Shown here in pieces: positions 3,457-32,544 of a stretch of 64,000 bases of DNA. The stretch is from the NCBI RefSeq assembly GCF_003258365.1, contig NZ_QHKM01000004.1, positions 248,001 to 312,000 of the forward strand. The letters are read 5' to 3'. Origin of the DNA: Hymenobacter edaphi (GTDB taxonomy: Bacteria; Bacteroidota; Bacteroidia; Cytophagales; Hymenobacteraceae). Below the pieces are notes generated by a model, which had not been told where the DNA came from, did no database searches, and saw only the letters and a list, made by a program, of their open reading frames with translations. The translations under genes and the position numbers were made by a program. The first letter of the stretch is position 1, and every line of letters starts with the position of its first letter.

Positions 3457-3729
3457 TTAGTTCACCCGCGGGTGAAGAGACGGGATAAGTAAGGCAATCA
3501 ATATACCGCTGCCACCAATAAGCAACAGCCAACGGCTGGCTTTGATAGGGTCGGAGTCGAGGCCGGAGCCGGGGTCCGACCAGTCGCCGCTAAACAGGGA
3601 CGCCAGCGTAATAACGACCAGCAGCGCCCCCAGAAACCAGCGCCCGACCTTAAACCGCAGCAGCACCCCGATAACAATCAGCAGGACGCCTAATCCGCCT
3701 ACGATACTTTGGGCCAACTGCCAGTTCAT
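3457..3729 (-). CDS. Small membrane protein (90 aa)
   Basis: A 90-residue protein with three hydrophobic stretches (about 8-25, 31-48 and 66-86) and an acidic loop GDWSDPGSGLDSD between the second and third. The start MNWQLAQS lies 14 nt after the stop of the duplicated carboxylase tail (3744-3801). That spacing is nearly the same as between the intact carboxylase gene and the next small membrane gene. The family is not recognised. It probably belonged to the carboxylase transcript before the 101-aa gene was placed between them. Confidence 0.65.
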   Translation of the reverse strand: MNWQLAQSIVGGLGVLLIVIGVLLRFKVGRWFLGALLVVITLASLFSGDWSDPGSGLDSDPIKASRWLLLIGGSGILIALLIPSLHPRVN

Positions 3730-3743
3730 GCGGCGCGGGGAAG

Positions 3744-3801
3744 TTACAGGGGAATATTCCCGTGCTTTTTACGCGGCTGCGGGTCTACTTTGTTTTCGGG
3801 C
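3744..3801 (-). pseudogene. Relic copy of the acyl-CoA carboxylase beta-subunit 3' end
   Basis: Read on the minus strand this segment encodes [18 protein letters not shown] and a stop, against [18 protein letters not shown] and a stop at the end of the intact gene (4135-4192). At DNA level 3745-3801 matches 4136-4192 at 49 of 57 positions without gaps. About five of the eight changes are silent, so the copy diverged as coding sequence. The 101-aa membrane protein gene lies exactly between the two copies. Confidence 0.85.
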
Positions 3802-3816
3802 CTTGTGGTAAATACC

Positions 3817-4122
3817 TCAGGAAGTAAAGTCTTTTACCAGGCGAACGACAAAGACAATTGCCAGAATATTTACCGCAATGACCACCAGCCAAAGCGCCAT
3901 TTGCCAATCCCACAGGCTGACAACGGCTCCCAGTCCATTGAGAATGGTCGCTGCCAAAGCAAAGCCGTAGGCCGCCGCCATGATGGACCTGGAACGTTTA
4001 TCCGCAAGGCCGACCGCACGGGCAAAGGCCGGAACGAGCGGCGTATACCGGAAGGCCAAGCCGAGGGCAAAGGCTAGCAAGCCGGCAAACAGGAAAAACA
4101 GCGTGGGAGCCACCGGCGCCAT
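3817..4122 (-). CDS. Small membrane protein (101 aa) between duplicated carboxylase tails
   Basis: A 101-residue protein with three or four hydrophobic segments (about 6-25, 46-68 and 72-95) and a basic loop LADKRSRS. It starts 12 nt after the stop of the carboxylase beta subunit, so it is likely co-transcribed and perhaps translationally coupled. Its stop is followed 15 nt later by the relic of the carboxylase 3' end, so the gene is bracketed by direct repeats of that end. The family is not recognised. It is the presumed cargo of the insertion. Confidence 0.65.
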   Translation of the reverse strand: MAPVAPTLFFLFAGLLAFALGLAFRYTPLVPAFARAVGLADKRSRSIMAAAYGFALAATILNGLGAVVSLWDWQMALWLVVIAVNILAIVFVVRLVKDFTS

Positions 4123-4134
4123 CGGGCGGTTGGG

Positions 4135-5703
4135 CTACAGGGGAATATTGCCGTGCTTTTTGCGCGGCAGCTGGTCCACCTTGTTTTCGAGCATCTTGAA
4201 AGCGCGGATCAGCTTCTGCCGCGTCTGCGAAGGCAGAATCACCTCATCCACGAAGCCGCGGTGGGCCGCCCGGTAGGGCGTGGCAAACTTGCGCTGGTAC
4301 TCGTCGACCTTCTCCTGCAGTTTGGCTTCGGGGTCGTCGGCGGCGGCTATTTCGCGCTTGAAGATGATTTCGGCCGCGCCCTTGGCGCCCATCACCGCAA
4401 TTTCGGCCGTGGGCCAGGCGTAGTTCATGTCCGCCCCGATGTGCTTCGAGTTCATCACGTCGTAAGCCCCGCCGTAGGCTTTGCGGGTAATGACGGTGAT
4501 GCGCGGCACGGTGGCTTCGCAAAAGGCGTAAAGCAGCTTGGCGCCGTTGGTGATAATGCCGCGCCACTCCTGGTCGGTGCCGGGCAAAAAGCCGGGCACG
4601 TCCTCGAGCACCAGCAGCGGAATGTTGAACGAGTCGCAGAAGCGCACGAAGCGGGCCGCCTTGGTCGAGGCGTTGATGTCCAAGACGCCGGCCAGCACCG
4701 CCGGCTGGTTGCCCACGATGCCGATGCTGCGCCCGCCCAGCCGCGCGAAGCCCACCACGATGTTCTCGGCGAAGTTCTGGTGCACCTCCATGAAGGAGTC
4801 CGCATCGATAATGCCGCTGATAACCTCGCGGATGTCGTAGGGCTGGTTGGGGTTGTCGGGGATGATCTGGTCCAGCTCCGTCCGCAGCTCGTCGCCCTGA
4901 GCGTCGTAGGGGTACACCGGGGCGGTGTCCTCGCAGTTCTGCGGCATGTAGCTCAGCAGCTGCTTGAGCTGCTGAATGATGGCCACCTCGTTGGGCGCGG
5001 TGAAGTGCGTCACGCCGCTCTTGGTGCTGTGGGTGCTGGCGCCGCCCAACTCCTCGCTGGTCACGGTTTCGTGGGTCACCGTCTTCACCACGTTCGGGCC
5101 GGTCACAAACATGTAGCTCGTGTCCTCCACCATCAGGATGAAGTCGGTAATGGCCGGCGAGTACACCGCCCCGCCCGCGCACGGCCCCATGATGGCCGAC
5201 AGCTGCGGCACCACGCCCGAGGCCAGGGTATTCTTGTAGAAGATGTCGGCGTAGCCGCCCAGGCTCACCACGCCCTCCTGAATGCGGGCCCCGCCCGAGT
5301 CGTTCAGGCCGATAACCGGGGCGCCATTTTTCATGGCCAGGTCCATGATCTTCACGATTTTCTCGGCGTGGGTTTCGCTCAACGAGCCGCCCAGCACCGT
5401 GAAATCCTGCGAGAAAACGTAGGTCAGCCGGCCGTTAATCGTGCCGTAGCCCGTCACCACGCCGTCGCCGAGGTAGTATTCCTTGTCGAGGCCGAAGTCC
5501 TTGGAGCGGTGCATCACAAACTTGCCGATTTCCTCGAAGGAGCCGGGGTCCATCAAGAGGTCCAGCCGTTCGCGGGCCGTCAGCTTGCCCTTCTTGTGTT
5601 GGGCGTCGATGCGGGCCTGGCCACCGCCCAGCAGGGCCTCGGCGTTTTTCTGTTCCAGTACTTCGAGTTTGCTCAGCTTCGGGTCGGCGTGCGGATCGGA
5701 CAT
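4135..5703 (-). CDS. Acyl-CoA carboxylase, beta (carboxyltransferase) subunit
   Basis: A 522-residue protein of the propionyl-CoA carboxylase / methylmalonyl-CoA decarboxylase carboxyltransferase family. It moves CO2 from carboxybiotin to an acyl-CoA and works with a biotinylated alpha subunit not seen in this window. Two crotonase-like halves are visible. The N-half carries [26 protein letters not shown] and [11 protein letters not shown], with the oxyanion glycines at [12 protein letters not shown]. The C-half carries [20 protein letters not shown] and [13 protein letters not shown] start at the ATG at 5703 (MSDPHADPK), not further upstream, because a perfect -7 box TACCTTTG lies at 5747-5754. 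Propionyl-CoA is the usual substrate of this branch, by family similarity only. Confidence 0.93.
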
Positions 5704-5855: not shown

Positions 5856-6356
5856 ATGACTAAATATTTGACCACATACTTCGGTGAAGTTGATTTCGGA
5901 AAGCTTGATGAATGGTATGAAACAGCGTTTGAAGTGAATGGAAAGCAAGTCGAAGTGTCTATGACAATTTCGAAAGCATTCAAAACCATCGATGAAAGTG
6001 ATATTCGAAGGGTCGATGACTATGTTGCTGCTTTGCAAAATCATGAAAAAGATATTCGGACATTACTGCAACATGATTTCGCGCAGAAAGGCGCGACAAG
6101 AGAGTATATCGACCTCCAGATAGGAAATCAAGACAAGGACGATATTGCTGAATTAATCGAGAATGTTGGCAAGAGAATAACTAAAAGAGAAAAACTACTG
6201 TCAATTATGAGCTTGCTAAGAGTGGTATTTTATCCGGAGAAAGAAGATGATATGTTCGCAGTATTTGATTATACAATCGATGAAGATTTAACTGACGATG
6301 TGCTAGCGGTTAAGCTACGCAAAGACAGTAGTGTTTCACTTGCTATAGAAAGTTGA
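5856..6356 (+). CDS. DUF2004-like protein, AT-rich and probably acquired
   Basis: A 166-residue acidic protein that opens [22 protein letters not shown] and later has [29 protein letters not shown]. This matches the general pattern of DUF2004 proteins (YFGEID near the N-terminus, a FDYTI..DLTD strand near the end). The DUF assignment is from memory and moderately certain. The gene is strikingly AT-rich and uses AAA, ATT and GAT codons, unlike everything around it. It also has an AAAGGA Shine-Dalgarno-like site 8 nt before the ATG, which most genes here lack. Both signs point to recent transfer. It has no partner gene; a relic clpC tail with terminator follows its stop. Confidence 0.7.
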
Positions 6357-6380: not shown

Positions 6381-6465
6381 CAAAAAAACGGCCGGCTCCC
6401 TCGCAGGAACCGGCCGTTCTTCATGCATTCCAGGCTACTTACTTGTCCTTCTTGTCTTCTAGCGC
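6381..6465. pseudogene. Relic copy of the clpC 3' end with its terminator hairpin
   Basis: On the minus strand this segment reads ALEDKKDK and a stop, followed by the same trailer and hairpin as clpC (SPEGKTGE and a stop, at 7118-7195). The hairpin part, ACGGCCGG...CCGGCCGT with a T-run, matches the clpC terminator except for two base changes and two extra A/T pairs. The coding part and trailer are about three-quarters identical. The Uma2 gene lies exactly between the two copies. The hairpin can still serve as a two-way terminator for the DUF2004-like and Uma2 genes. Confidence 0.85.
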
Positions 6466-6471
6466 AGCTAA

Positions 6472-7086
6472 TCACAACTCCACATCCTCGTACAGCTCCG
6501 CCACCGTCAGCGTCACCCCAGTGCTCGGCAGCGTCACCACGCCCTGCGCATCCAGAATTTCCGTCAGCGTCCACTGCCCGGTTTCAGTGCGAGAGTACAG
6601 TTCCACCCGCAGGCTGCGCGAATCAACCAGCAGATAGTCCCGCACTGATTTGATGCTGCGGTAGCGCATGAACTTGCCGCTGCGGTCATAATCAGCCGTG
6701 GAATCCGAAAGCACCTCAATAATGACAACCGGATTGGTCAACAAGTCCAACTTGCCATTCTGTTGGATTTCCGGCTTGCCGCACACCACCAACGCGTCAG
6801 GATATAAGTACGTGCCGGTAAGCGGAACATATACCCGCATGTCGCTGCCGAAGGTCCGGCAGCCTTTGCCGCGCAGGGCGTTCTGGAACAACCCGAAGAC
6901 GTTACCTGCAATCATATTGTGCGCCAACGACGCCCCCGACATGGCCTGCACGTCGTACATGCCCAGCATGTCCGGGCGCCCCCACGGGTAAATCTGCCCG
7001 TCCACGAATTCGTGCTTGAACTCGGAGGCGTACTCCATAGCCGCGTATTCCTCCTCGGTGTAACGGCGCTTGCGAGGTGATTCCAT
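6472..7086 (-). CDS. Uma2 family PD-(D/E)XK endonuclease
   Basis: A 204-residue protein of the Uma2 (DUF820) family, a putative restriction-endonuclease fold. The active-site pattern is clear: D in YLYPDALVV, E in NPVVIIEVLSDST and K in DRSGKFMRYRSI, ending with the usual VRDYLLVDSRSLRVELY. The N-terminus has the family's EEEYAAMEY and HEFVDGQIY. A perfect -7 box TACCTTTG lies at 7106-7113, so the gene carries its own promoter. It is bracketed by the intact clpC 3' end plus terminator on one side and a diverged copy of both on the other. Its stop lies within about 8 nt of the relic, as if the gene was inserted at the clpC end. Biological role of the family is unknown. Confidence 0.88.
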   Translation of the reverse strand: MESPRKRRYTEEEYAAMEYASEFKHEFVDGQIYPWGRPDMLGMYDVQAMSGASLAHNMIAGNVFGLFQNALRGKGCRTFGSDMRVYVPLTGTYLYPDALVVCGKPEIQQNGKLDLLTNPVVIIEVLSDSTADYDRSGKFMRYRSIKSVRDYLLVDSRSLRVELYSRTETGQWTLTEILDAQGVVTLPSTGVTLTVAELYEDVEL

Positions 7087-7105
7087 AACGTTTTTGGCTC
7101 TTAAT

Positions 7106-7113
7106 CAAAGGTA
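7106..7113 (-). promoter_or_regulatory. -7 promoter box of the Uma2 gene
   Basis: TACCTTTG on the minus strand, 20 nt before the Uma2 ATG and just past the clpC terminator hairpin. The inserted unit therefore contains terminator, promoter and gene in that order. Confidence 0.7.
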
Positions 7114-7117
7114 AATA

Positions 7118-7157
7118 CAAAAACGGCCGGCTCCCTCACAGGAACCGGCCGCTCTTC
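7118..7157 (-). terminator. Intrinsic terminator of clpC
   Basis: On the minus strand: GCGGCCGGTTCC, an 8-nt loop, GGAGCCGGCCGT, then a T-run, starting 20 nt past the clpC stop. An almost identical copy is at 6381-6420. Confidence 0.85.
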
Positions 7158-7173
7158 ATTTACTCCGGGCTAC

Positions 7174-9774
7174 TTATTCGCCCGTCTTGCCTTCCGGCGA
7201 CTCCGGCGTTTCGGCCGGCCGCTCGTCGCTGGCGAGGGTAGAGGCCTCGTCGCTCTTGCGCGAGCTGAAGGTCAGTTCCTCCTTGCCTTCCTCGAAGTCG
7301 GCTTCGATAACGTCGCCCTGAGTCAGCTGAGCCTTCAGGATTTCCTCCGCAATCGGGTCTTCGATGTACTTCTGGATGGCCCGGTTCAGCGGACGCGCGC
7401 CGTACTTCGGATCGTAGCCTTTCTCGGCCACGAAGGTCTTCGCGGCTTCGGTCAGCTCGATGCGGTAGCCCAGGGCCTGTACGCGCTGGCGCAGCTTGGC
7501 GAGGGAGATGTCGATGATCTTGAAGATATCCTCCTTCTGCAGGCCGTTGAACACGATTACGTCGTCCAGGCGGTTCAGGAACTCCGGCGCGAAGGTCTTG
7601 CGCAACGCGCTGGCAATGGTACCCTTCATCAGGTCGTCCACGCCTTCCGTGCGGGCCTTCGTGCCGAAGCCGATGCCCACGCCGAAGTCGGCCAGATCAC
7701 GCGCCCCGATGTTCGAGGTCATGATGATGATGGTGTTGCGGAAGTCCACCTTGCGGCCCAGGCCGTCGGTCAGAATGCCGTCGTCGAGCACCTGCAGCAG
7801 CAGGTTGTACACGTCCGGGTGAGCCTTTTCGATTTCGTCGAGCAGGATAACCGAGTACGGCTTGCGGCGGATTTTCTCCGTCAGCTGGCCGCCCTCTTCG
7901 TAGCCCACGTAGCCGGGAGGCGCGCCCACCAGGCGCGATACGCTGAATTTCTCCATGTACTCCGACATGTCGATGCGCACCAGCGAATCTTCCTTGTCGA
8001 AGAGGTAGGTAGCCAGCACCTTGGCCAGCTCCGTCTTACCCACGCCCGTCGGGCCGAGGAACACGAACGAGCCGATGGGCTTCTTCGGGTCTTTCAAACC
8101 CACGCGGGTGCGCTGGATGGCCTTCACGAGCTGGGCAATGGCCTTGTCCTGACCGATTACCTTGCCCTTCAGCTCCTCACCCATGTTGAGCAGCTTGGCG
8201 CTTTCGTTCTGGGCCACGCGGCTTACCGGGATGCCAGTCATCATGGCAATAACCTCGGCCACGTTTTCCTCCTTCACGGTGTAGCGCTTCTTCTTGGTCT
8301 CCTCTTCCCAGTTCTTTTTGGCCTGGTCGAGTTGCTCAATCAGCTTCTTCTCCGTGTCGCGCAGGCGGGCAGCTTCCTCGTACTTCTGCGACTTCACCAC
8401 CGCGTTTTTCTCGCCCTTGATGTTCTCGATCTGCTCTTCGAGCTTCACGATGTCCTCGGGCACCACGATGTTGTTGATGTGGACGCGGGCGCCGGCCTCA
8501 TCGAGGATATCGATGGCCTTGTCCGGCAGGAAGCGGTCCGACATGTAGCGGTCCGACAGCTTCACGCACGCCTCAATGGCCTTATCGGTGTACACCACAT
8601 GGTGGTGGTCCTGATACTTGTCCTTGATGTTGTGCAGGATTTCGATGGTTTCCTCCGGCGTGGTGGGGTCCACCATCACCATCTGGAAACGACGGGCCAG
8701 GGCGCCATCCTTCTCGATGTACTGGCGGTACTCGTCCAGCGTGGTAGCACCGATGCATTGAATTTCACCGCGGGCCAGGGCCGGCTTGAACATGTTCGAG
8801 GCGTCGAGCGAACCGGAAGCGCCACCGGCGCCCACGATGGTGTGCAGCTCGTCGATGAACAGAATCACGTCGGGCGACTTCTCCAGCTCGTTCATCACGG
8901 CCTTCATGCGCTCCTCGAACTGGCCGCGGTACTTGGTGCCGGCTACCAGCGAGGCGAGGTCCAGGGTCACGACGCGCTTGTTGAAGAGCACGCGCGACAC
9001 CTTCTTCTGCACGATACGCAGGGCGAGGCCTTCGGCAATGGCCGTTTTACCCACGCCGGGCTCCCCAATGAGAATCGGGTTGTTCTTTTTGCGGCGCGAG
9101 AGGATCTGAGCGACGCGCTCAATTTCCTTTTCGCGGCCCACGATGGGGTCAAGCTTGTCGTCCTCGGCCAGCTTGGTCAGGTCGCGGCCGAAGTTATCGA
9201 GCACCGGGGTGCGCGACTTTTCGCCGGGCTTCTTGGAAGCGGCGGAGCCGGCGCCTTTCGACGAGCCAAACAACTTGTCGTTGTCGTCGTCGTCGGTGTC
9301 TGAGGGGCCCGAGGTGGGGTTTTGGTTGGTATTACCAGTGCCGTGGTAATCCAGCGAGTCGCGTACGGATTCGTAGTTCACGTTGAACTTGCTCAGGATT
9401 TGGGAAGAAATGTTGTCTTCATCGCGCAGAATCGAGAGCAGCAGGTGTTCGGTGCCGATGATTTCGCTCTTGAAGATTTTGGCTTCGAGGTACGTAATCT
9501 TCAGGACTTTTTCCGTCTGCTTCGTCAGCGGGATGCTGCCCGTTATACTGATACCCTGGGTGGCAGTGTTACGAGTGGCTTGCTCGAGGGCGTATTTCAG
9601 CTCCTCGACGGAGACGCCGAGCTTCTTCAACAGAGCAATGGCCGTGCCTTCGCCCTCCCGAATCATGCCTAGCAACAGGTGCTCGGTGCCTATATAGTCA
9701 TGGCCAAGTCGGATGGCTTCCTCCCGACTCAGGGAGATGACCTCCTTGACTCTATTTGAGAATTTCGCTTCCAT
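7174..9774 (-). CDS. clpC: ATP-dependent Clp protease ATP-binding subunit ClpC
   Basis: An 866-residue AAA+ unfoldase that feeds substrates to ClpP in the cytosol. Domains in order: two Clp-N repeats (about 1-150), an acidic linker, ATPase 1 with Walker A GEPGVGKT at 237-244 and Walker B LFIDELH, a middle domain with a UVR-like segment ([19 protein letters not shown]) that marks ClpC rather than ClpA or ClpB, then ATPase 2 with [12 protein letters not shown] and [14 protein letters not shown]. The tail after LTFSSRKSD is variable and acidic. That variable tail is the part duplicated at 6381-6465. In this family adaptor proteins bind the N-domain and middle domain; none is encoded nearby. A terminator hairpin follows the stop. 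Confidence 0.97.
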
Positions 9775-16302: not shown

Positions 16303-16389
16303 AGAGAGGTGGCAGAGTGGTCGAATGCGACGGATTCGAAATCCGTTATACCTGCAAGGGTATCGGGGGTTCGAATCCCCCCCTCTCTG
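16303..16389 (+). tRNA. tRNA-Ser (anticodon CGA)
   Basis: Acceptor AGAGAGG pairs with CCTCTCT. The anticodon arm ACGGA-TTCGAAA-TCCGT gives CGA (reads UCG). A long variable arm typical of serine tRNAs follows, then the T arm GGGGGTTCGAATCCCCC. No CCA is encoded. Confidence 0.95.
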
Positions 16390-16390
16390 C

Positions 16391-16429
16391 AAAAAAGGCT
16401 TTTCCGGGTCACCGAAAAAGCCTTTTTTT
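16391..16429 (+). terminator. Hairpin after the first tRNA
   Basis: AAAAAAGGCTTTTCCGG, short loop, CCGAAAAAGCCTTTTTTT. One mismatch in the stem and a clear T-run. The second tRNA follows 16 nt later, so read-through or processing may supply both. Confidence 0.8.
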
Positions 16430-16444
16430 GTGAATACCCGCCAC

Positions 16445-16529
16445 AGAGGAGTGGCAGAGTGGTCGATTGCGGCGGTCTTGAAAACCGTTGAGGGTAACAC
16501 CTCCGGGGGTTCGAATCCCTCCTCCTCTG
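16445..16529 (+). tRNA. tRNA-Ser (anticodon TGA)
   Basis: Acceptor AGAGGAG pairs with CTCCTCT. The anticodon loop CTTGAAA gives TGA (reads UCA). A long variable arm and the T arm GGGGTTCGAATCCCT follow. It differs in acceptor and variable arm from the neighbouring tRNA-Ser(CGA). Confidence 0.95.
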
Positions 16530-16535
16530 CACCAA

Positions 16536-29812: not shown

Positions 29813-29868
29813 GAAAACGAGTTGGTCGTGCTGGGTAAGCCGCACGCGGGCGTGGTCACCCGGGAGCT

Positions 29869-29926
29869 TCAGCCCTGGCTGAGCAGCCACTGCAGCCGGG
29901 GCCCGGTTGATGAAGGTATTGAGGCA
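29869..29926 (-). pseudogene. Relic of the 3' end of the 144-aa gene (32110-32544)
   Basis: On the minus strand the segment reads LNTFIN, a frame break, then LQWLLSQG and a stop. The end of the intact gene is LDTFIDEGPAVQWLLRQG and a stop. DNA identity is high over about 57 nt (for instance the run GAGCAGCCACTGCA is identical in both), with a 2-nt gap. The 567-aa T9SS gene lies between the gene and the relic. It could be the tail of a third, deleted paralog or a duplicated end. Confidence 0.7.
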
Positions 29927-29929
29927 TTA

Positions 29930-29958
29930 GGGCGGGGGCCTGGGCAAGGCCCCCGCCC
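29930..29958 (-). terminator. Hairpin after the T9SS gene
   Basis: GGGCGGGGGCC (29930-29940) pairs with GGCCCCCGCCC (29948-29958) over a 7-nt loop, 29 nt past the stop of the secreted protein gene. No T-run. Confidence 0.65.
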
Positions 29959-29986: not shown

Positions 29987-31690
29987 CTACCTATAGTGTA
30001 GCCGTAGACTACGACTGCCGTGGGTAGTGGTGAGTTGCAGCACATACAAACCGGGCTTGAGGCCAGCAGCAGCGCCGTCGAATACGATGGAGCCTGCGCT
30101 GGCTGGCGTCAAGGTGCTAACAAGCTGCCCGGTGGTGTTGTACACGCGCAGGCTGCGCACCTGTTCGTTTGCGCCAAGGGCCAGATCGAGGGTGGCCGTG
30201 CCGTTAAAGGGGTTGGGATAGGCTGCGAAGCGCGTGGCTACCTGCCCAGCGCCTGGCTTAGCCGGCGCACCGCCTGCCCCGGGCCGCAGTGATACATTAT
30301 TATAAGGACTAGACTTGTAGGCGATGAGGCTCTGGGCTTCATCCAAAAAAGCGTACAGGGCGTCGTTGGTCCCAAATAAGCCGCCGGGCGTGGTGGCGGT
30401 CAGGCGGCCGGCTATAGCAGGCAAGTACTGGCTGCCGATTTCATTCTGGTTCACAATGGCGTAGCCGTCACCGTTGAACTGGTTGTAGTTCTGCACCGCG
30501 CCGGTGTTGTAGTCGAGTCGCAACTGCAGCACATCCTTGTCGCCATAGCGGGTGGCGGGGGCGGGCCCGCCATTCGTCCAGGCTACCAGGATGGCGTCGC
30601 CCGCGTAGGTCACCACCGGGCTTACAGCAGCGGCCAGGGCATATAATGGGGTTATGCCGTCGCCTGTTTCGTTGAGCACCGTTACCCTAGGCATATCAGC
30701 GAAGGTATCGTGTACCGGCAAGCTGCTGCGGGAGTTGTTGAGCCCAATAACTTTGCTGTCACTGCTGTTAGAATCGGTCAGCACCACCTCGTAACCGTAA
30801 GACCCGAAGCCGCCATAGTTGTGCGTAGCCGATATGCGCGGCGTGTTCAGGCGCCCGAAACCGGTGTATATGTCGATGTCCCGGGTTAAGAGGGTAGCAC
30901 CGGAACGCAGGTCAGCAACAGGTGGCTGAACCATGCGGATGGTTTGCGCAGCGGTAGCCGTATTGGTGGCTACGAACACGAACGAGGCCACGTCCAAGTC
31001 GTTCGATTCGTTGTTGGTGTTGCGGTTAAACGCTACGTCCGGCTGCGAGAAAACGAAGCCTGGCTGGTTGCCGACTACCTGATACACGCCGCCGAGGTTG
31101 GTGGTACTGGTGCTGGCCGTCAGGGCGAAAGTGCGGGCGTAGATGAGGCCGTTCTGCTCCCACACAATGACGGCCTCGCCGTTGTTGTTGACGTCCACGT
31201 TGGGGTTGGCGCACTGGCCTAGGCCGGTAGTATTTACCTGCGTGGAGCCTTTAATGGTGGTCAGGCTGGTGCCAGTGGCGTTCAGCTGACGCACTTCGTA
31301 AAAGATGTTGCCGTTGACGGTGTAGGTCACCAACATTTTGCCGGTGCCTACGCCAGTAGTGGAGGGACCAGGGTCTACTACCACATCCGGGTCCTGGGCG
31401 CCCGTGGCCAGCAATGGCAATGAACCAGTGGTGCCGTCCAGGTCCCAACCAAGGTAGCTGCCGTTGCTACTATCCCACACAATAGCTTTTAACAGCGCCC
31501 CACCAGTACCATAATAAGCTACCTCGCAGCCCGTGTTGAGCACCCCGGATACTCCTTGCGGAGAAGAAATTGGGTAGTCCTGAGTGGTGGCGGGGTAATA
31601 CGCCACCTGTGCCAAAGCAACGCCTGCGCTTAGGAAGATGATGACGGCTAGCGCGGCAGTGTAACGCGCAAGAGTTAAAACGTTTAGCAT
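29987..31690 (-). CDS. T9SS-secreted protein (567 aa)
   Basis: A 567-residue secreted protein. It has a signal peptide (YTAALAVIIFLSAGVALAQ), a long beta-rich body with repeated lines of the kind DVVVDPG..., NPNVDVNNNGEAVIVWEQNG and SQPDVAFNRNTNNESND (six-bladed or FlgD-like beta structure is possible), and a C-terminal type A sorting domain. That domain reads AAYPNPFNGTATLDLALG...RVYNTTGQLV...GLKPGLYVLQLTTTHGSRSLRLHYR. T9SS exports it and anchors it at the cell surface. GC and codon use look lower than in the neighbours. Two palindromes sit in its leader. Confidence 0.88.
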   Translation of the reverse strand: MLNVLTLARYTAALAVIIFLSAGVALAQVAYYPATTQDYPISSPQGVSGVLNTGCEVAYYGTGGALLKAIVWDSSNGSYLGWDLDGTTGSLPLLATGAQDPDVVVDPGPSTTGVGTGKMLVTYTVNGNIFYEVRQLNATGTSLTTIKGSTQVNTTGLGQCANPNVDVNNNGEAVIVWEQNGLIYARTFALTASTSTTNLGGVYQVVGNQPGFVFSQPDVAFNRNTNNESNDLDVASFVFVATNTATAAQTIRMVQPPVADLRSGATLLTRDIDIYTGFGRLNTPRISATHNYGGFGSYGYEVVLTDSNSSDSKVIGLNNSRSSLPVHDTFADMPRVTVLNETGDGITPLYALAAAVSPVVTYAGDAILVAWTNGGPAPATRYGDKDVLQLRLDYNTGAVQNYNQFNGDGYAIVNQNEIGSQYLPAIAGRLTATTPGGLFGTNDALYAFLDEAQSLIAYKSSPYNNVSLRPGAGGAPAKPGAGQVATRFAAYPNPFNGTATLDLALGANEQVRSLRVYNTTGQLVSTLTPASAGSIVFDGAAAGLKPGLYVLQLTTTHGSRSLRLHYR

Positions 31691-32109: not shown

Positions 32110-32544
32110 TCAGCCCTGCCGGAGCAGCCACTGCACGGCCGGGCCCTCGTCGATAAAGGTGTCGAGGCGGTAGAGCTGCGCGGGGGCCTGGGCTACGGCG
32201 GTGGCGTCGCGTAGGCCCGCGTCGCGGCGCAGCTCGTGGGCCCGCATGGGTGAGAGCAGGTAGGCCACGTACAGCGTAGCCGGCGCCAGGGCGGCGGCGG
32301 ACTCGGGCAGCAGGTGCTCGGCCACCCAGCGGGAGGGCACCGCGTCCAGCTCGGTGCGGCGGCGCACATCTACCAGCCAGCGGGTGGCCTGCCGGGCCAG
32401 GCCCATAGCCAGCGCCGCCCGAAAGCCCTGCTGCAACTCGGCAAAGGTGACGGCCCGCAGCCAGCGCACGGCCAGCGTCTGCAGGTCGGGGCGGTAGGAG
32501 AGGTCGAGGAAGTCGAAAGAAGGCAAATCAGAGGAACTACTCAT
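32110..32544 (-). CDS. Conserved hypothetical protein, STAS-like paralog A
   Basis: A 144-residue protein: SYRPDLQTLAVRWLRAVTFAELQQGFRAALAMGLARQATRWLVDVRRRTELDAVPSRWVAEHLLP, ending LDTFIDEGPAVQWLLRQG. The order strand-helix-strand (WLVDVRRR)-helix looks like a SpoIIAA/STAS-type fold, which is an inference from pattern only. It has a paralog 63 nt upstream (32608-33015) sharing the frame RPDLQ.L..RW...FA.LQ...A........WL.DVRRR.EL. Its 3' end has a relic copy at 29869-29926. No catalytic residues are seen. Confidence 0.75.
   Translation of the reverse strand: MSSSSDLPSFDFLDLSYRPDLQTLAVRWLRAVTFAELQQGFRAALAMGLARQATRWLVDVRRRTELDAVPSRWVAEHLLPESAAALAPATLYVAYLLSPMRAHELRRDAGLRDATAVAQAPAQLYRLDTFIDEGPAVQWLLRQG

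Follow-up and report, generated by a model that had tools for sequence, protein, structure and literature searches.

In homology-facilitated illegitimate recombination (HFIR) during transformation, one end of the incoming DNA is joined by homology and the other end illegitimately. The minimal mobile elements of Neisseria occupy a slot between two conserved genes; their content varies among strains and moves by homologous exchange, and no mobility gene is present. Insertion with long target duplication was reportedly described by Nobusato and co-workers in 2000 at restriction-modification genes of H. pylori. For rhs genes and the effector-immunity arrays of type VI secretion systems (T6SS), the consulted part of PMC5361080 describes C-terminal displacement and proposes HFIR; the literature consulted also included PMC3784515, PMC2884548, and PMC1643837. 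The titles and abstract starts searched, which cover the subscription literature thinly, showed no class of gene-end relics in housekeeping genes.

We analyzed a stretch of 64,000 nucleotides from Hymenobacter edaphi (contig NZ_QHKM01000004.1, positions 248,001 to 312,000; the window), in which the tails of two conserved genes, clpC and the carboxyltransferase gene acc, each occur twice. As in HFIR, foreign cargo was probably gained without an integrase or a transposase, and at acc one junction lies at a homologous position in a common gene. Distinct from HFIR, the end of the host gene is preserved, since that same 3' end comes with the donor DNA. The foreign tract and the relic start close to each other at acc, which classical HFIR does not predict, and the material is natural genomes instead of a transformation assay. 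The rhs and T6SS systems, as far as the consulted part of the source describes them, are similar in that a new 3' end and a new gene come in, old 3' parts stay downstream as orphans, and the events stack serially; there, selection acts on the exchanged ends, which are variable toxin tips, whereas the tails here are conserved parts of housekeeping genes, with the downstream gene as payload. Long target duplication shares with the window a gene enclosed in a long, directly repeated target, an uninterrupted allele in a relative (for acc and a third gene), and restriction-like cargo at clpC. However, only one of the acc copies is recipient sequence, since the live copy is foreign, and the remaining cargo is not restriction-modification. 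The likeness to minimal mobile elements lies in the conserved flanks, clpC and acc, with content differing between relatives; the alleles in the window are stacked with gene-end relics, not cleanly exchanged on both sides. The principle is already known; housekeeping-gene ends as hosts are new.

The clpC tail repeat and its slot in relatives

The first host gene, clpC (7174..9774, minus strand; Pfam Clp_N, AAA, and ClpB_D2-small), is intact. Self-comparison of the window gave an 81-nt direct repeat with 84% ungapped identity (6384-6464 versus 7119-7199). The copy at 7119..7199 (minus strand) comprises the live clpC tail, the stop codon, the trailer, and a terminator hairpin. The copy at 6384..6464 (minus strand) comprises a relic clpC tail and its terminator; it adjoins the stop codon of the Uma2 gene and lies in the Uma2 frame. 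The Uma2 gene (6472..7086, minus strand; PF05685, E 7.7e-31, residues 46-195) stands between the copies and has orthologues behind clpC elsewhere. A first-pass annotation, made from the letters of the window, had described a duplicated clpC 3' end and terminator, near-identical hairpins, and Uma2 as the lone gene in between. The analysis bore out this description, with coordinates right to within a few bases: the intact tail ends in SPEGKTGE and the relic in ALEDKKDK, each followed by a stop codon, and the two hairpins form an identical stem of -30.1 kcal/mol.

A search of the window's own genome (G000) with the 81-nt unit returned two strong places only (E 2.7e-36 and 9.7e-19); the remaining three matches were fragmentary, spanning 17 to 35 nt at E of 0.12 or more. 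A dispersed terminator or REP-like repeat was ruled out, as the unit has two copies genome-wide. The clpC origin of the relic is confirmed by the sister genome G002, whose less decayed relic reads APEGKKGE before the stop codon.

Sixty-eight clpC loci were examined of the 120 placed, among which the window's genome is counted. acc is within reach of clpC at 56 of the 68, and the content of the slot between these conserved flanks differs among relatives. Gene-end relics were present at 5 of the 68 loci; inserts larger than approximately 6 kb would escape this count, and 12 of the 68 loci had no acc in reach. In the sister species G003 and G007, a clpC tail pair of approximately 105 nt (91% and 87% identity) brackets a four-gene glycan cluster on the opposite strand (GT, methyltransferase, WbqC, and DegT; Pfam assignments made on the G003 proteins). 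G005 has three tail copies with a 168-aa ORF and Uma2 between the copies, and the 168-aa ORF terminates, as read by eye, at the clpC stop codon that the middle copy supplies. In H. gummosus, a second Uma2 gene (PF05685, E 4.6e-26) is fused in frame to a clpC tail that ends in ETSAPEGKKGE and a stop codon. The relics start about 75, about 27, and 0 nt upstream of the stop codon, as judged by eye. A 166-aa ORF of the window (5856..6356, plus strand; no Pfam family, 37.7% G+C) is unique to the window's genome among the 68 loci. Self-matches at six more loci (G021, G025, G032, G115, G047, and G107) scored 33 to 44 bits, spanned 33 to 49 nt, and were taken for hairpin or trailer similarity, not relics. 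The two clpC copies are too old and resemble each other too closely for an allele switch to be read.

Alleles at the acc tail

The second host gene, acc (4135..5703, minus strand; PF01039), ends in 57 nt that recur at 3745-3801, downstream of a single 101-aa gene (3817..4122, minus strand; no Pfam family). The live tail (4136..4192, minus strand) carries non-native alleles and the relic tail (3745..3801, minus strand) native ones. Beyond the relic lies a 90-aa gene (3457..3729, minus strand), the native next gene of acc, which directly follows an uninterrupted acc in three close relatives, G002, G006, and H. gummosus. In two more distant relatives, G135 and G176, acc is directly followed by a homolog of the 101-aa gene; among 204 genomes of the family, these were the only others matched by that gene (E <= 1e-4). 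Because the two arrangements each stand alone in relatives, the window holds two acc-slot alleles stacked in tandem. The recipient-type, donor-type, and recombinant states of acc are all in hand.

The live tail differs from the three close relatives at 5 of 53 sites, which are few. Upstream of it, the same comparison gave 0/93 in the preceding 111 nt and 3/182 in the 200 nt before (Fisher p = 0.0035 for the excess in the tail). At all five sites where the live tail leaves the common allele of the three relatives, the relic agrees with them (5/5); at sites informative against G005, G007, G003, and G004, it agreed with them at 6/6, 6/6, 5/5, and 7/7, respectively. Depending on which relative is compared, the last native site of acc falls between 1484 and 1508; the first foreign site is at 1523, and the reading frame is unbroken across the switch. 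Foreign alleles start within about 15 to 30 nt of the relic start, depending on the donor stand-in. None of the sampled genomes matches the live tail throughout, which places the donor outside the sample and leaves room for a mosaic tract. Position 1556 has the allele of the window's own clade, and 1562 has that of two of three clade members. G007 is nearest (93% of 58 nt), yet it has no match to the 101-aa gene.

The first-pass annotation had proposed that an element enters a gene's 3' end, brings a replacement end, and leaves the old end as a relic. This was demonstrated at acc and is likely at clpC. It had also expected relatives without the insert to carry an uninterrupted gene whose tail resembles the relic. 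At clpC this failed, the relic-free G006 carrying an intact-type tail; at acc the uninterrupted genes of the relatives carry the relic's alleles. The clpC/Uma2 bracket is probably one of several scars that arose when different alleles of a variable slot downstream of a conserved gene recombined. This reading rests on the observed repeats, on uninterrupted alleles and both parental arrangements in relatives, on the switch of alleles within acc, on the recurrence with different cargo, on locus contigs in which no tyrosine integrase was found, and on junctions that have no word in common.

Insertion with long target duplication would yield an identical layout with the break point at the relic start, and such a layout has reportedly been described around restriction-modification genes. 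It would, however, make both copies native, whereas at acc the live copy is foreign and the relic native, and a donor-type acc arrangement exists in G135 and G176. On this evidence from acc we consider it improbable, less firmly so at clpC and the third gene.

Further scars, integrases, and the Uma2 gene

The third host gene (32110..32544, minus strand; 144 aa, no Pfam family) also has a repeated 3' end. Behind it a 567-aa gene (29987..31690, minus strand) encoding a Por secretion tail domain is inserted, followed by the relic 3' end (29866..29945, minus strand). G002 lacks this 2.2-kb insert, and its third host gene runs straight into the sequence beyond the relic. The relic is decayed, and its allele sites are three for and two against, as read by eye.

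Gene-end relics downstream of their own gene were searched for in 852 kb of G000 (658 genes, with ORFs called longest-first and no gene finder). Five were found, a rate of about one visible scar in 130 scanned genes; clpC and acc are two of the five and were known prior to the scan. Seven matches of the predicted kind had been obtained. One was dropped for its 10 copies in the scanned contig and another because its host ORF is antisense to a longer ORF holding both copies; one of those kept overlies a 123-aa same-strand ORF, which was read as the relic itself. Three opposite control geometries gave five matches, four with 4 to 21 copies and one a tandem paralogue, and none was left after the same filters. 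The predicted kind was absent from 318 genes of G097 (three unfiltered control matches, two with 2 copies and one with 11) and from 310 genes of G009 (one unfiltered control match, 2 copies). The difference between 5/658 and 0/628 has p = 0.06.

A history of local events only, in which tandem duplication or non-allelic gene conversion put the clpC tail behind an old Uma2 with no insertion there, is about as improbable as long target duplication. Uma2 is ancestral behind clpC, the relic lies in the Uma2 frame, and the hairpins are alike, all of which would suit such a history; acc, the third gene, and the three-copy array of G005 would be left unexplained.

Slightly less probable still is site-specific integration, in which a small element would be served in trans by an integrase and would use the clpC and acc 3' ends as attachment sites, like islands at tRNA genes. 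The geometry is att-like (a replacement end, a relic, and a foreign tract starting near the relic start at acc), and G005 shows serial accretion. Against this, the host genes differ, and so do the clpC relic starts. Seven junctions shared no common word longer than 6 nt, shuffles averaging 7.3, and together with the differing starts this indicates no fixed crossover site. No tyrosine recombinase (PF00589) was found on the locus contigs of G000, G002, G005, and G006, and Pfam identified no integrase among nine cargo proteins and further inserts, where serine recombinases were also looked for. The cargo ranges from one small gene to the four-gene cluster in opposite orientation. The view of the first-pass annotation that no integrase is involved holds for tyrosine recombinases on the locus contigs and for the cargo, and its integrase-free recombination between strains is the best reading.

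The same annotation had suggested that Uma2 itself promotes insertion, and this was not borne out. Uma2 proteins are assigned a PD-(D/E)XK-type fold. A Uma2 gene like that of the window lies behind clpC with no detectable relic in five relatives (G016, G028, G097, G040, where it is broken, and G091); Uma2 is therefore an old syntenic neighbor of clpC, not the insertion agent. A tail pair without Uma2, which the annotation had held would refute its proposal, occurs in G003 and G007 with the glycan cluster instead. The glycan cluster and the 101-aa, 168-aa, and 567-aa genes serve as inserts, so a nuclease is not the insert at every scar. The survey of Uma2 genes for flanking duplicated ends, suggested in the same place, started from 55 loci, of which 54 had a match and 51 had 600 nt on both sides, giving 43 distinct genes. 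Four were bracketed, all at the clpC locus, against 0 of the other 39, of which nine also adjoin clpC. Locus L153 gave a 22-nt match of 36.5 bits, under the threshold; mismatched pairs, the control, yielded 0 or 1 matches per round. A homing role for Uma2, in which the nuclease would cleave gene ends and repair would copy its gene in, is therefore very improbable: the position of Uma2 between the copies, its fold, the suitability of break repair for the acc junction, and a weak Mrr_cat match, below the family cut-off, in a 249-aa ORF behind clpC of G006 would favor it, and the tail pairs without Uma2 (also at acc), the five relic-free Uma2 neighbors, and the survey oppose it.

Probable recombination between slot alleles

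The genes that occupy the slot differ from one related species to another. Under recombination between slot alleles, DNA of another lineage, presumably taken up from outside, would pair with the last codons of the conserved gene as its homologous end, and the opposite end would join without homology, just before or within the resident old tail. Cargo would be added, and the conserved gene would exchange its 3' end for the incoming one. The former end would persist behind the cargo as a relic that may then lend its stop codon and terminator to the cargo gene. At acc, a break may have occurred in the gene's tail, with one broken end copying the donor locus and then being joined to the other end; the start of the foreign alleles near the relic start would fit such break repair. 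A ComEC-type gene was present in 8/8 genomes of the genus and also in 10/14 control genomes, so its presence says little on transformation. No literature on natural transformation in Hymenobacter was found, as judged by titles and abstract starts.

The entry of single genes without mobility functions into chromosomes is hard to see afterwards. Gene-end relics mark the junction, reveal the foreign end, and are countable in any genome; hence, the frequency and polarity of such insertions become measurable. Tentatively, where the final codons of conserved genes are broken in this Hymenobacter lineage, repair may copy the homologous locus of another species from one broken end and then close the break, which could add genes behind conserved genes, in tandem with the resident cargo, without a mobile element. 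Each relic would then be the fossil of one event, and the old terminator would become the terminator of the new gene.

The clpC tail repeat and the slot behind clpC

The first-pass annotation had placed the 3' end and terminator of clpC (7174-9774, minus strand) in the window twice, with a Uma2 gene between the copies. This was confirmed as an 81-nt repeat of 84% identity at 6384-6464 and 7119-7199, containing the final clpC codons, stop codon, trailer, and terminator hairpin. No third copy was found in the whole 6.04-Mb genome. The two hairpins, described as nearly identical, fold alike. By eye, compared with the window's terminator copies (6384-6425), the hairpin loop is inverse in two of the copies of a relative's genome, G005, as if the palindrome had flipped. 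In H. edaphi (G000) and two relatives (G002 and G005), the clpC relic, i.e. the presumed old 3' end left downstream, lies immediately 3' of the Uma2 stop codon, in the same frame as Uma2. Read by eye, the distance from relic start to stop codon differs between the clpC relics: about 27, 0, or about 75 nt.

The carboxyltransferase gene acc (4135-5703, minus strand) was within reach downstream of clpC in 56 of the 68 clpC loci examined, at a very variable distance. The contents of this slot vary between genomes and include Uma2, a four-gene glycan cluster (GT/methyltransferase/WbqC/DegT), and small ORFs; Uma2 and the glycan cluster occur together in G097. Strong clpC tail duplicates (at least 70 bits) were detected at 5/68 loci (G000, G002, G005, G003, and G007), and H. 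gummosus has an additional one. The pairs of G003 and G007 enclose the glycan cluster without Uma2, with the relic in front of acc, against the suggestion that Uma2 may promote the insertion. G005 has three tail copies with two genes between; in its Uma2 leader (locus L025), a palindromic insert of ~100 nt, MITE-like by eye, separates terminator copy 2 from Uma2. In H. gummosus (locus L114, 6663-7319), a second Uma2 gene, 218 codons long, continues in frame across the clpC tail and ends in ...ETSAPEGKKGE and stop; the clpC stop codon and terminator are therefore borrowed.

Among eight genomes sampled in the genus, a close Uma2 follows clpC in G000, G002, and G005 and is absent there in the other five; one also follows clpC in H. 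gummosus (L114). The nearest ClpC (99%) is that of G006, which has a single clpC tail copy and then a different gene. An uninterrupted clpC with a relic-like tail had been anticipated, but the tail of this relic-free genome is of the intact type. In genomes from outside the genus, clpC is likewise followed by Uma2: at 61-82% identity in G016, G028, G097, G040 (broken), and G091, and by a more distant one (46-47%) in G093 and G109. None of these seven clpC loci is among those with self-hits of at least 33 bits. Uma2 is therefore a long-standing neighbour of clpC, and the relic is the product of a separate event within one lineage.

Recipient-type, donor-type, and recombinant forms of acc

The end of acc (4136-4192) is repeated at 3745-3801 (57 nt, 88%), with one 101-aa gene (3817-4122, minus strand) between. 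A 90-aa gene, which in the window (3457-3729, minus strand) stands after the relic, directly follows acc in G002, G006, and H. gummosus. Of 204 genomes, only two others have a match to the 101-aa gene (49-50% identity), in each case immediately behind acc. Relatives thus show the recipient type (acc-90-aa) and the donor type (acc-101-aa), and the window shows the recombinant, stacked order.

The live acc tail differs at five sites from the allele shared by G002, G006, and H. gummosus; at all five the relic has that shared allele, and all five live states are known from other genomes. In the 111 nt upstream of the tail, G000 agrees with these relatives at 93/93 unanimous sites; 5/53 sites differ in the tail and 3/275 upstream (Fisher p = 0.0035). 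The tail is not the sole divergent part of acc, because 15/378 sites differ at 800-1200. Depending on whether native alleles are compared with G007 or with G003/G004, the last separating site is 1484 to 1508. The foreign tract starts after this site and before 1523, and the relic at about 1512. The nearness of the switch point to the relic start is better explained if the event began with a break in the gene's tail, a step inferred from this one case.

Other gene-end relics in the genome

The search for two-copy 3'-end relics downstream of their host genes covered 852 kb of G000 with 658 genes (100 aa or longer). It found five such hosts, all on the minus strand: clpC, acc, a 144-aa gene (32110-32544), and two on contig C11 (relics at window 3745, 6384, and 29866; C11 loci L197 and L200). 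After the same filters, no opposite geometries remained among the 658 genes. The predicted geometry occurred in 0/318 genes in G097 and 0/310 in G009, another relative. In G002 the 144-aa locus is contiguous, without the 2.2-kb insert. At L197 (4899-9222), a 221-nt relic about 2.6 kb downstream of its gene is common to G000 and G002, the G000 insert having additional repetitive sequence; the tail is single-copy in the other six genomes. The other C11 relic occurs in G000 alone among five genomes compared. Elsewhere in the window (16303-16530), two adjacent tRNA-Ser genes (anticodons cga and tga) are 82% alike over 50 nt.

Mechanism and relation to known insertions

Homology-facilitated illegitimate recombination (HFIR), with one homologous and one illegitimate end, can explain all cases. 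Extracts of earlier reports propose HFIR for T6SS immunity arrays and rhs tips (PMC5361080) and for E. coli dimorphic loci (PMC2884548). Simple target duplication at acc is argued against by the foreign alleles of the live copy. Site-specific integration at gene ends is disfavoured, as no integrase was found among the examined cargo proteins, no tyrosine recombinase on this locus's contigs in G000, G002, G005, and G006, and no word common to the junctions.

Insertion with long target duplication, described for H. pylori and often involving restriction-modification genes (PMC1643837), has the same layout. What sets the present cases apart is the allelic evidence at acc that the live end is the foreign one, together with ordinary conserved genes as hosts.
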